Assembly: GCF_007641235.1 (NCBI RefSeq)
Contig: NZ_CP038157.1
Span: 868,001-932,000 of the forward strand
Direction: 5' to 3'
DNA: 64,000 nucleotides
Source: Corynebacterium sanguinis
GTDB taxonomy: Bacteria; Actinomycetota; Actinomycetes; Mycobacteriales; Mycobacteriaceae
Numbering within the stretch: position 1 is the first letter of the stretch; each line of letters starts with the position of its first letter. The position numbers and the translations under genes were made by a program. Shown one piece after another: positions 3,393 to 51,446 of this stretch. The notes beneath the pieces were generated by a model. That model saw only the letters and a list, made by a program, of their open reading frames with translations. It was not told where the DNA came from and searched no databases.

Positions 3393-4289
3393 TTAGGGTA
3401 GCTCGTCGGCCGCGGTGGGATAGGCGCTTTGTGTGCCGCGGCGGGTGGTAGACAGCGCTGCGACGCGGGATGCGTACGCGGAGGCGTCGACAAGCGAAGC
3501 TCCGTGGGCGAGGCGGGCGGCGATCGCGCCGACGAAGGCGTCGCCCGCGCCGGTGGTATCGATGGCCTCGACCCGCGGGGCGGGGATCGGCGTGATCGTG
3601 TCGCCGTGGCCGACAACGGCACCTCCCGCGCCGCGGGTGATCACGACGGAGGCAAAACCCTGCGCGAGCAGCACCGCCGCCTTCTCCTCCTCCGTGGCGG
3701 GAGGCTGCAGCTCGCCGAGCTGGGTGAGAATCAGCCCCGCTTCGTGCTCGTTGGCCACCAAGGGATCGGCCCGCAGCAGGTCGGCGCGCTCGACGTCGAT
3801 GACGGGCGCGAGGTTGACCACCACGCGGCCGGTGGCGAGTTGGACCGCGGCGGAAAACCCGCTCGCCGGGATCTCGCCCTGTACGACGACCACCTCGGCA
3901 CCCTCGACTGCACCGCGCCGGGCGTCGACAAAGCCTCCGTCTACCTGCGCGTTTGCCCCGCTGACGACGACGATGGTGTTCTCGCCGCTGCTGTCGACGG
4001 TGATCACGGCAAGGCCCGTCGGCCCGTCGACCGCGGACACGTCGCTGAGCTCCACCCCCGACGTGCGCAGGTACTTGAGTGCTTCCTCGGCGTAGGCGTC
4101 GGTGCCGACCGCTCCAACCATGCACACCTGCGTGCCCAGTTTGGCGCAGGCCACGGCCTGGTTGGCCCCCTTGCCGCCCGCCGAGACCTCCCCACCGCTG
4201 CCCAGCAGAGTCTCACCGGGGCGCGGGTGGCGGTCGACCTCAACGACCAGATCGGCGTTGATCGATCCTACGACAGTGACAGTTGCCAT
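3393..4289 (-). CDS. rbsK: Ribokinase (PfkB family)
   Basis: 298 residues from ATG 4289 (a TTG at 4298 is also possible). Ribokinase phosphorylates D-ribose at O5 with ATP. The PfkB signatures are intact: VGSINADLV at the N-terminus, GGKGANQAVA near residue 40 (signature 1) and DTTGAGDAFVGAIAARL near residue 250 (signature 2, with the catalytic Asp in GAGD). Length matches ribokinases. It begins 10 bp after the response-regulator stop on the same strand and may be read through from the chrSA transcript. No ribose transporter or repressor is nearby, so the substrate is inferred from family likeness. Confidence 0.85.
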   Translation of the reverse strand: MATVTVVGSINADLVVEVDRHPRPGETLLGSGGEVSAGGKGANQAVACAKLGTQVCMVGAVGTDAYAEEALKYLRTSGVELSDVSAVDGPTGLAVITVDSSGENTIVVVSGANAQVDGGFVDARRGAVEGAEVVVVQGEIPASGFSAAVQLATGRVVVNLAPVIDVERADLLRADPLVANEHEAGLILTQLGELQPPATEEEKAAVLLAQGFASVVITRGAGGAVVGHGDTITPIPAPRVEAIDTTGAGDAFVGAIAARLAHGASLVDASAYASRVAALSTTRRGTQSAYPTAADELP

Positions 4290-44335: not shown

Positions 44336-49425
<5,090 letters not shown>

Positions 49426-49550: not shown

Positions 49551-49671
49551 GTGTCGGTGGTTGATGGCGGCGGGGAAACGCCCGGACCCATTCCGAACCC
49601 GGAAGCTAAGCCCGCCCGCGCTGATGGTACTGCCCCCGGGAGGGGGTGGGAGAGTAAGTTACCGCCGACCC
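49551..49671 (+). rRNA. rrf: 5S ribosomal RNA
   Basis: About 121 nt. The terminal stem GTCGGTGG pairs with CCGCCGAC; the core CCCATTCCGAACCCGGAAGC and GGTACTGC are typical 5S sequences. Confidence 0.93.
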
Positions 49672-49688
49672 AACAACTTAACAACACA

Positions 49689-49731
49689 CAAGCAGCCGCA
49701 CCCCCAAAAACACAGGGGGGTGCGGCTGCTT
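49689..49731 (+). terminator. rRNA operon terminator
   Basis: AGCAGCCGCACCCCC (49689-49703) pairs perfectly with GGGGGTGCGGCTGCT (49714-49728), followed by TTTT. Confidence 0.95.
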
Positions 49732-49841
49732 TTGCGTGCGCCACCCAACGAGAGCCAGTTGAACTGCGCGCACCGAAAGACACGCGAAGAGTCAACGCGC
49801 GCCTTGACTTCCTTGTTGAGGCTGCTTTCACAATCGCCCCC

Positions 49842-50470
49842 AGTCCGAATTGTGCACACCACCCACTCCGCCACGGCAGAGTCGAACGACGCCTCGAGCA
49901 CTCCAGTCCGCATGGCGCACACCACCAACTCCGCCACCACAGAGTCAGGATGGCGCTATGGTCCGTATTGCGGACTGCGCCACGGCAGAGTCGGGAACAA
50001 ATTCATCGAGCCGGCTCAGTAAAGCGAGCACGAAGTATTCACAACTCTGCAGCGGCAGAGTTAGGTGGCGTTTCCCGAAGCCGTTTCGTGGTGCGCCAAC
50101 ATACTTCGCTCTCGGCTCGTCCACACTGCGGACTCTGCCACGGCAGAGTGAGATGATGCTCGAACCAACGCATCGCTCGATCCACGAGCGCTCCACCCCC
50201 GGCCACTCCGCATCGCGGACTCCGCCAACTCCGCCACGGCAGAGTCGAAGGACGTGCCGGCTTATACGGTGAAGCCAAAGCGCCTCGTCTTCGATGAGCG
50301 CGCACAGTAGACTCCGCAGCTGCAGAGTTAGATTACTCGAGCCACCGCCTCGGTCAAGCTGATAATGCTCCGCCCATGGCCACTCGCAGGGCGTGCCCCA
50401 TTAACTCCGCCACGGCAGAGTCCGAGCGTCGTAAAGTGTGCACTCCCCACGCCAGTCCGCACTGCGGACT
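49842..50470. repeat. Array of eight 18-bp palindromic repeats plus a second palindrome family
   Basis: Core A is ACTC(C/T)GCCACGGCAGAGT, a near-palindrome with 8-base arms. Copies are at 49865-49882, 49928-49945, 49974-49991, 50044-50061, 50132-50149, 50228-50245, 50311-50328 and 50404-50421, spaced 46-96 bp. Core B, AGTCCGCACTGCGGACT (perfect at 50454-50470), recurs in weaker form at 49842-49858, 49904-49920, 49960-49976, 50118-50134 and 50205-50221. B often abuts or overlaps A. The 743-bp gap between the rrn terminator and the next gene holds nothing else; open frames here are repeat-driven and unconvincing. Confidence 0.85.
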
Positions 50471-50474
50471 CCCC

Positions 50475-51446
50475 TTAGGACACCTCCAAGAACCCGGGGA
50501 CACCGAACTCACGCTCCGCGCCCGTAAGGGGATCGCGGAAGCCGAGGTAAACCGACTTCAACCGCATGGGCACCGCGAAGTCCTCCTCCCCGAAGGGGTT
50601 GACGGTGGGGTACACGGGGTCTCCGAGAATGGGTGCTTCAGCCTCGTTCATCTGCACCCGCAGCTGGTGGGTGCGACCGGTGACGGGCTCGAGGAGGTAG
50701 CGCGCGAGGGGGAATGTAACGCTGTGGAGGGATTGCATGGTGGGGGCGTCGATACGCAGTGCCTCGCGCACGTGAGTGAGCGCGTTGGGTTCCCTGCCCT
50801 CGATCACGGTGGAGGCGATCTCGCCATGCTGTTTGTCAATGTGGTGGTGCCATGATGTGGGCGCGGTGATGCCGATGTCTTCGGCTATCGCTTCATAGTG
50901 CTTGCGAACCTGCCGGGCGGCGAAGAGCTCCTGGTAGGCGCCGCGGTGCTGTCTTTGCTTCGTCAGCAGGAGTAGCCCCGAGGTCATGCGGTCGAGGCGG
51001 TGGGCGGGCGTGAGGTCTTCGTTGCCGGTTGCGCGGCGCAGCCGCACGGTGGCGGATTCGGTGATGTGCGCGGCGCGTGGCATCGTCGCTAAGAATGGTG
51101 GCTTGTCCACCACGAGGATGGTGTCGTCCTCGTAAACCGTCTCGATGTCGTAGGGAACGGGCTTTTCGGGGGCCGGCCGGCGGTAAAAGAAGACGTCCGT
51201 GCCTGGCTGCACGAGCTGATCTGGGTGCAGCGCGGTGCCGTCGCGGAGGACAACTTCCCCGGAATCGAAGCGTTCCAGAACCGCGGAGTCATCGTCATCC
51301 GGGTGCCGATGCCGCTGCTCAGCGATGACGCGGGCGATGAAATCGAATGCTGTGACCGGGTCGCCGTCGGGAAGCCGCACGCGGCTCGCGCCCAAACCAC
51401 TTCGAGGGGGCAAAGGAATTGCCCCGTTTTTCTTCCTCCGCACCAT
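50475..51446 (-). CDS. RluA-family pseudouridine synthase
   Basis: 323 residues. The catalytic Asp is in the motif HRLDRMTSGLLLL near residue 147; DDTILVVDKPPFLATMP precedes it and the C-terminal PVTGRTHQLRVQMN is the family's RTHQIR element. It isomerises uridine in rRNA or tRNA; the target cannot be told. An N-terminal 85-residue stretch (ASRVRLPDGDPVTAFDFIARVI) may be an S4-like RNA-binding lobe. The stop is 4 bp from the last palindrome of the repeat array. Confidence 0.88.
   Translation of the reverse strand: MVRRKKNGAIPLPPRSGLGASRVRLPDGDPVTAFDFIARVIAEQRHRHPDDDDSAVLERFDSGEVVLRDGTALHPDQLVQPGTDVFFYRRPAPEKPVPYDIETVYEDDTILVVDKPPFLATMPRAAHITESATVRLRRATGNEDLTPAHRLDRMTSGLLLLTKQRQHRGAYQELFAARQVRKHYEAIAEDIGITAPTSWHHHIDKQHGEIASTVIEGREPNALTHVREALRIDAPTMQSLHSVTFPLARYLLEPVTGRTHQLRVQMNEAEAPILGDPVYPTVNPFGEEDFAVPMRLKSVYLGFRDPLTGAEREFGVPGFLEVS

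Follow-up and report, generated by a model that had tools for sequence, protein, structure and literature searches.

Palindrome arrays behind rRNA operons of Corynebacterium and their association with one clade of predicted HNH nucleases

What is a dense mosaic of two short palindromes in the space behind an rRNA operon, and which gene, if any, does it belong to? The question is raised by a window of 64,000 nucleotides (positions 868001-932000 of contig C1 of genome G000, a Corynebacterium chromosome of 2.36 Mb in one contig). A plus-strand rRNA operon (rrn) in this window, with 16S rRNA at 44336-45856, 23S rRNA at 46335-49423 and 5S rRNA at 49553-49670 (Rfam RF00177, RF02541 and RF00001, respectively), is followed by a terminator-like hairpin with a short T run (49684-49737, plus strand; inverted repeat I1, 91% complementary). 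The mosaic begins behind this hairpin; as delimited by palindrome and unit analysis, it occupies 49842-50470, has no strand assigned and ends 4 bp short of a convergent RNA pseudouridylate synthase gene (50475-51446, minus strand; open reading frame with PF00849 at 3e-21), which bounds it. Its near neighbours are rRNA, the pseudouridylate synthase and a universal stress protein. Comparison of the window with 4227 Rfam families at gathering score yielded the three rRNAs and nothing else.

The array is composed of eight palindromes of the ACTCYGCCACGGCAGAGT type (A) and six of the ASTCCGCATTGCGGACT type (B). The A copies, all on the plus strand, are located at 49865-49882 (A1), 49928-49945 (A2), 49974-49991 (A3), 50044-50061 (A4, centre CAGCGG), 50132-50149 (A5), 50228-50245 (A6), 50311-50328 (A7, centre CAGCTG) and 50404-50421 (A8); the irregular start-to-start distances of 46-96 bp named in the original prediction were recovered. 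The B copies are located at 49842-49858 (B1, minus strand, degenerate with 4 mismatches), 49905-49921 (B2, minus strand, 3 mismatches), 49960-49976 (B3, minus strand), 50118-50134 (B4, plus strand), 50205-50221 (B5, minus strand) and 50454-50470 (B6, plus strand, the best B copy). As had been described, B often abuts A or shares bases with it: five of the six B copies immediately precede an A copy (14 or 23 bp between the two starts), and B3 and B4 overlap A3 and A5, respectively, by 3 bp. Allowing up to three mismatches on both strands, A yielded 13 matches in the window, every one inside the array (0.13 expected; 0 of 100 shuffles attained 13), whereas B yielded nine matches at five places (0.41 expected), the sixth copy (49842) being found only with four mismatches allowed; these figures confirm that the array exists. 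Copy 7 of A (GCAGCTGC) is still palindromic, and the arm variants TCCGC, TATGC, TGCGC and TCTGC each face their complement, in line with the compensatory changes claimed earlier. On the plus strand, the fifth pair of six of the eight A copies is C opposite A, so that pairing on this strand is imperfect. A coding reading is without support, which agrees with the earlier judgement.

Four 5S rRNA genes are present in the genome (221357, minus strand; 917553 and 1231173, plus strand; 1986766, minus strand), each with an array behind it in which A is oriented like the operon; further palindrome clusters are found at 544.4 kb and 2111.2 kb. The window array shares a stretch of 344 bp with the array of the 1231-kb operon (98% identity) and other blocks with that of the 1986-kb operon. 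Corynebacterium lipophiloflavum DSM 44291 (G020) is a relative with the same arrays. Seven arrays from the two genomes were cut at the palindromes, which gave 52 spacers of at least 20 bp, falling into 28 families. The length of the A-to-B spacers was 54-60 bp in 26 of 30 cases, whereas the A-to-A spacers (n=22) ranged from 23 to 85 bp. Regarding the 55 spacer pairs that match, 45 did so over at least 85% of both spacers and ten partially, and 0 of 600 shuffled pairs attained the match score. The order of the units varies (e.g., spacer family 3 is preceded by 2 or 9 and followed by 4, 8 or 17). Whole-length matches in differing order indicate duplication and exchange of whole units, joined for the most part at palindromes. 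The earlier description of the spacers as unrelated is therefore partly right, but it holds neither for the near-constant length of the A-to-B spacers nor for the many spacers that recur as whole units in other arrays.

Three further observations concern single arrays or sites. The array at the end of contig C76 of C. lipophiloflavum (L017) is very regular, with a unit of about 100 bp and three spacers of one family, and represents a recent tandem amplification. Solo A-like palindromes outside the arrays, identical in sequence between the species, occur at 1235799 and 1464142 of contig C1 of G000 and at 4026 and 212586 of contig C76 of G020; these sites are apparently orthologous. In two species the same insertion-sequence start, which we take to be IS21-like, lies right behind an rrn palindrome array (L009, 220.8-221.1 kb of contig C1 of G000; L048, 582 kb of contig C1 of G179), and palindrome arrays may be insertion hot spots.

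Several of the arrays away from rrn lie directly upstream of HNH genes (DUF222/13E12-like). In this genome, outside the window, A palindromes are found upstream of HNH-A (profile match 543023-544282, minus strand) and B palindromes upstream of HNH-B (1930510-1931730, plus strand). A tree was built of 29 HNH proteins, 14 of which have A or B palindromes within 900 bp upstream of their genes. These 14 formed one clade (support 100/99), 11 of them having been picked because an array had been seen beside them; the remaining 15 fell outside the clade and had no A or B palindromes upstream. Since all HNH genes found in G000 (10) and G162 (8) entered the tree, these two genomes offer an unselected set, in which palindromes were upstream of 5/5 clade members vs 0/13 others. 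Within the clade, the group from G000, G020, G162 and G141 has A-type palindromes and the rest B. Homing endonuclease genes sit inside the target that they cut and form mobile coding units; the clade genes adjoin palindromes and are not inserted within them. Carriage of the enzyme by phages or plasmids was considered and rejected, no close carrier having been found: plasmids gave one relative (30%), and a scan of viral contigs with two peptide patterns gave four weak matches, to the HNH part only.

A was found with at most one mismatch in 11 of 242 Corynebacterium genomes, at least five copies being present only in G000, G020, G141 and G179. A scan for exact A with one genome per species, which may omit the window's own genome, gave 16 stretches, four of them from C. 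lipophiloflavum, the sole species with several copies per stretch. B (at most one mismatch) was found in 43 of the 242 genomes, at up to 49 places, and the reversed-B control in six genomes with one match each. The 14 clade proteins served to build a profile (A1), which scored at least 500 bits in 35 of the same 242 genomes; this line was drawn after the data were seen, the best scores of the genomes leaving a gap between 538 and 460. (Note that the low scores of G157 and G085 were estimated from E-values, with no effect on the co-occurrence count.) At least two B palindromes were present in 33/35 genomes with a high-scoring enzyme vs 1/207 without (Fisher p 4e-37, inflated by the shared ancestry of the species), and in 23/25 vs 1/207 after removal of the ten genomes supplying profile sequences. 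The sole exception among the 207 is G169, with two B sites. Regarding the two enzyme-bearing genomes with fewer than two B, G076 has a single B upstream of the enzyme gene, and G191 has its own variant palindrome (ACTGCGCAATGCGCAGT) twice upstream. The suggestion of a genus-specific intergenic repeat is borne out to this extent, copies in number occurring almost only together with one enzyme type.

Two of these genomes deserve separate mention. The 34 other high-scoring genomes contain one to three HNH-clade matches each, whereas G245 has six (one of them partial) together with mixed rrn arrays; its enzymes are candidates for a recent duplication accompanied by divergence of the palindromes. 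In G179, two clade genes (557592 and 1100964 of contig C1) have an in-frame stop, a third is open, and 28 B palindromes are kept; arrays can persist for some time after their enzyme is lost.

Which places do the palindromes occupy? In seven genomes (G000, G061, G139, G162, G129, G089 and G179), B-like palindromes (at most three mismatches) stand behind 28/28 rrn, starting within about 210 bp of the 5S rRNA gene in 26 cases and 1.3-2.4 kb from it in two. A uniform count required at least two B with at most two mismatches within 1.6 kb behind an rrn, a genome being counted as a bearer when half or more of its examined rrn qualified; with this criterion, chosen after the data were seen, an array was present behind 38 of 68 rrn of 18 enzyme-bearing genomes. 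Eleven of the 18 are bearers (the seven named above plus G142, G106, G245 and G016; 3/4 rrn in G106 at this setting), accounting together for 38 of 44 rrn, or for 34 of 40 in ten further Corynebacterium genomes if this genome is excluded. The uniform count detected no rrn array in the other seven of the 18 (G141, G188, G184, G074, G068, G112 and G202). In G141 the site is empty, the terminator being followed directly by what appears, by eye, to be the gene found downstream of the 1986-kb array of G000. Among 24 genomes without a high-scoring enzyme, two B were found behind 0/38 rrn, three having one two-mismatch match; another GC-rich palindrome occurred two to three times in 4 of these 38 control regions. 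An array behind rrn as a genus-wide habit is ruled out by the 0/38 control rrn. Some B sites elsewhere occupy identical intergenic spots in several species (presumably before rpsF, between leuS and a DUF488-like gene, and behind gyrA) and therefore look inherited. A third palindrome, of the TTGGTG..CACCAA type, was seen beside B in rrn arrays of G061 (L159-L162) and G016 (L218 and L321).

The palindromes vary with the enzymes. A core was assigned by inspection in 48 of 54 clade upstream regions, a convincing palindrome being missing in the other six (L257, L274, L275, L280, L284 and L287); upstream of several clade genes the palindrome occurs once. An automatic count (palindrome of at least 13 bp, at least two copies) was positive in 31/54 clade regions vs 1/15 control HNH genes. 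Apart from A and B, the palindromes of the clade include ACTATGCAGCTGCATAGT, ATTCTGCGGCCGCAGAAT, TCCGCCGGGCGGA (7 copies) and GATGCACGTGCATC (4 copies), among others, as well as TATGCATTGCATA, which is present in 11 copies about 45 bp apart upstream of a G074 enzyme. Paralogues with differing palindromes occur within one genome (three in G061, two each in G000, G162 and G139); one G074 paralogue is found with TATGCATTGCATA and the other with B, and the palindromes of two G009 paralogues are one base apart. On the tree of the 48 genes, the 17- vs 18-bp class changes twice, compared with a shuffled mean of 11.6, a test that near-copies inflate. Palindrome distance and protein distance are correlated (Mantel r 0.60, n=48), also with one gene per distinct core (r 0.43, n=20), with 0 of 5000 permutations in either case. 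Clearly different cores were encountered upstream in 2 of 586 tests. Enzymes and palindromes are hence associated and have co-evolved. The rrn arrays of G245 consist of TATGCANTGCATA mixed with TCCGCANTGCGGA, the TATGCANTGCATA type also occurring 11 times upstream of a G074 enzyme; this mixture parallels that of A and B in the window. In the rrn arrays of G061 and G162, the palindromes of their own A-like paralogues are absent. Four loci (L282, L285, L279 and L269) have differing palindromes of the 18-bp class with a common inner TGC..GCA frame, which may reflect a shared half-site contact, the outer bases being free to vary.

A LexA-like box (tCGAAC-N4-GTTCGa, at most 2 of 12 mismatches) was found within 250 bp upstream or in the first 30 bp of the match for 33 of 54 clade matches (0.8 expected), compared with 1/54 in an in-gene control. 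The feature is not specific, since a slightly different pattern (at most 2 of 14 mismatches) gave LexA-like sites in 2/15 control HNH genes. The LexA box of Streptomyces is given as tCGAAC-N4-GNNCGa in a portion of PMC9380542. As for the proteins themselves, the PF01844 HNH domain was detected in 9/9 clade proteins scanned, and the HNH motif is kept across an alignment of 14 (row L018 is cut by its stretch). PF02720 (DUF222) was above the cut-off in three of six proteins (L101, L084 and L127) and in 0/3 for L219, L229 and L236; HNH-A of this genome gave no PF02720 hit at E <= 0.001. HNH genes of this kind are abundant, a search of eight genomes giving 8-23 PF01844 matches in each. Overall confidence in the structure model is low (pLDDT 72, pTM 0.38). 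In a fold search with this model, the HNH part ranked with McrA, ScoMcrA and a Geobacter HNH nickase, none at E <= 0.001; the N-terminal helical part was without a convincing match, and the model gave it no DNA-binding fold. Among NCBIfam models only the HNH part was similar, below threshold, to IscB and to a phosphorothioate-dependent enzyme, and among PDB sequences it was again only the HNH part that matched, best to IscB at 0.00017. The PADLOC defence-system models matched 0/2 proteins.

The reading that we favour, with a probability of about 0.58, is that the palindromes clustered in the array are recognition sites of two predicted chromosomal HNH-family proteins, HNH-A and HNH-B. The multi-site protein-binding region considered in the original prediction fits, the likely binding partner being the HNH protein; it is compatible with the genus-specific repeat, and the interpretation offered at that time is in this sense partly supported. 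The most likely setting, as judged from the genomes compared, would be a family of HNH nucleases under SOS control that have extragenic palindromes cognate to them, rrn operons acting as harbours in which the palindromes spread by break repair. That these nucleases and their private palindromes make up a new enzyme-repeat class, the rrn arrays being seeded and maintained by cutting and templated repair, is a more tentative proposal, to which we give slightly less than an even chance. Proteins of the clade are paired with a 17- or 18-bp palindrome of their own just upstream of the gene; in some species the palindrome has been copied to other intergenic places, chiefly behind rRNA operons. DNA damage would induce the HNH protein by way of the LexA-like boxes, and the protein, presumably as a dimer, would bind the palindrome and then nick or cut it. 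Repair templated by another array would copy or delete whole palindrome-spacer units. Each of the four near-identical rrn loci could be repaired from another, and there is room behind the terminator; these loci would be the best templates and the least harmful addresses, so that arrays would persist and spread there. Binding, cleavage, SOS control, repair-driven spread and a selective benefit are what we infer from this arrangement.

The main rival is an autoregulated DNA-binding HNH protein for which the upstream palindromes are operators and the rrn arrays decoys that set its free level, so that neither cutting nor spreading by the enzyme is necessary. The LexA-like boxes close by would suit such a circuit, and so would the position of the copies relative to the 48 genes with a core (48 genes have copies upstream, 5 have them downstream and 3 within the start of the gene; the nearest copy precedes the profile match by about 140 bp in the median), although the 48/48 arises by construction, since cores other than A and B were read from the gene's own upstream region. 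Operators, however, explain neither the long rrn arrays nor the shuffling of units nor up to 11 upstream copies, and the HNH motif is conserved; we regard this account as unlikely, at perhaps one chance in five. A structured RNA tail of the rRNA transcript, as suggested earlier, or an antisense RNA, is hardly credible: the palindromes could form hairpins and their arm changes are often compensatory, but the array lies behind the terminator-like hairpin, matches no Rfam family and has the C-A mismatch on the plus strand in six of eight A copies, and palindromes are also found upstream of hnh genes and at other intergenic places in either orientation.

Two accounts dispense with the enzyme as partner. 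Chance amplification by slippage and rrn gene conversion, with the HNH link as an inherited coincidence, would yield a neutral satellite; in its favour, arrays of different rrn operons have blocks in common, and the period is typical of the species (71 bp in G061, 42 bp in G162), which looks like tandem duplication. It is nevertheless improbable in view of the co-occurrence in 33/35 vs 1/207 genomes, the differing palindromes at paralogues of one genome, the agreement of palindrome class with the enzyme tree and the core kept over many species. Very improbable, too, are sites of the E. coli BIME-2 kind, at which gyrase or a nucleoid protein would be recruited where positive supercoiling is strongest, downstream of rrn. 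Eleven of 18 enzyme-bearing genomes have arrays behind rrn, which would be in keeping with this, and a part of PMC6379681 reports E. coli gyrase sites to be enriched downstream of rRNA operons and in BIME-2; yet the same part states that the attraction of gyrase downstream of transcribed units seems not to be hard-wired, the array is present behind 0/38 rrn of 24 other Corynebacterium genomes, and pairing with an HNH gene is not predicted.

If recognition by HNH-A and HNH-B is accepted as the working explanation, one HNH clade would gain a concrete DNA partner, with a specificity code in effect spelled out by the natural co-variation of the sequences (17- vs 18-bp palindromes, several arm types). 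The presence of palindrome arrays at the end of some Corynebacterium rRNA operons would then have an explanation, and the persistence of extragenic palindromes, a question studied with RAYT, could be examined with a second type of enzyme. The new point is that each predicted nuclease has its own palindrome, a partnership of which no description was found in the open-licence literature; nor were palindromes linked to HNH genes, or palindrome arrays behind rrn of Corynebacterium, found to be described there.

Compared with known systems, the arrays resemble CRISPR in their near-constant spacer length (26/30 A-to-B spacers of 54-60 bp) but differ from it in having two types of variable palindromes, spacers that are shared and shuffled between loci and genomes, and several loci per genome; a CRISPR reading is without support. 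With BIME-2 of E. coli they share the organization as mosaic palindrome arrays between genes, whereas sequence and genus are different and the array is absent behind 38/38 control Corynebacterium rrn. The dRS3/NIME mosaics of Neisseria, in which short inverted repeats separate longer units, are alike in this mosaic structure; we know of no HNH partner or rrn address for them. The actinobacterial DUF222/HNH (13E12 repeat) family is alike in that the partners hit PF01844 and, weakly or clearly, PF02720; the palindrome pairing was seen in one of its clades only, and no palindrome partner or substrate of this family was found in the open-licence literature.

The closest parallel is REP/REPIN-RAYT. 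For Pseudomonas fluorescens SBW25, a section of PMC3116915 describes three REPIN classes, each beside its own RAYT gene and also dispersed, and proposes co-evolution; A and B likewise are short extragenic palindromes, both dispersed and beside a cognate enzyme gene, the enzyme being HNH. RAYT is a Y1 (HUH) transposase (Pfam PF01797), whereas the partner here is an HNH protein, and the Corynebacterium arrays stand behind rrn. A RAYT/Y1 transposase as partner was ruled out: PF01797 was found in 0/4 palindrome-bearing genomes (G000, G020, G141 and G179), the control search being positive in 5/14 known genomes. The defining enzyme being absent in 4/4 genomes tested, the system is not a member of REP/RAYT. 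A GTAG-type tetranucleotide, needed for REP/RAYT cleavage according to an excerpt of PMC8266576, was not seen beside A or B on inspection by eye. By analogy, the HNH-palindrome system probably works like REP/RAYT with an unrelated enzyme; if true, this would be a case of convergence with REP/RAYT on the basis of a nuclease of other origin, and the DUF222/HNH family would have its first substrate.
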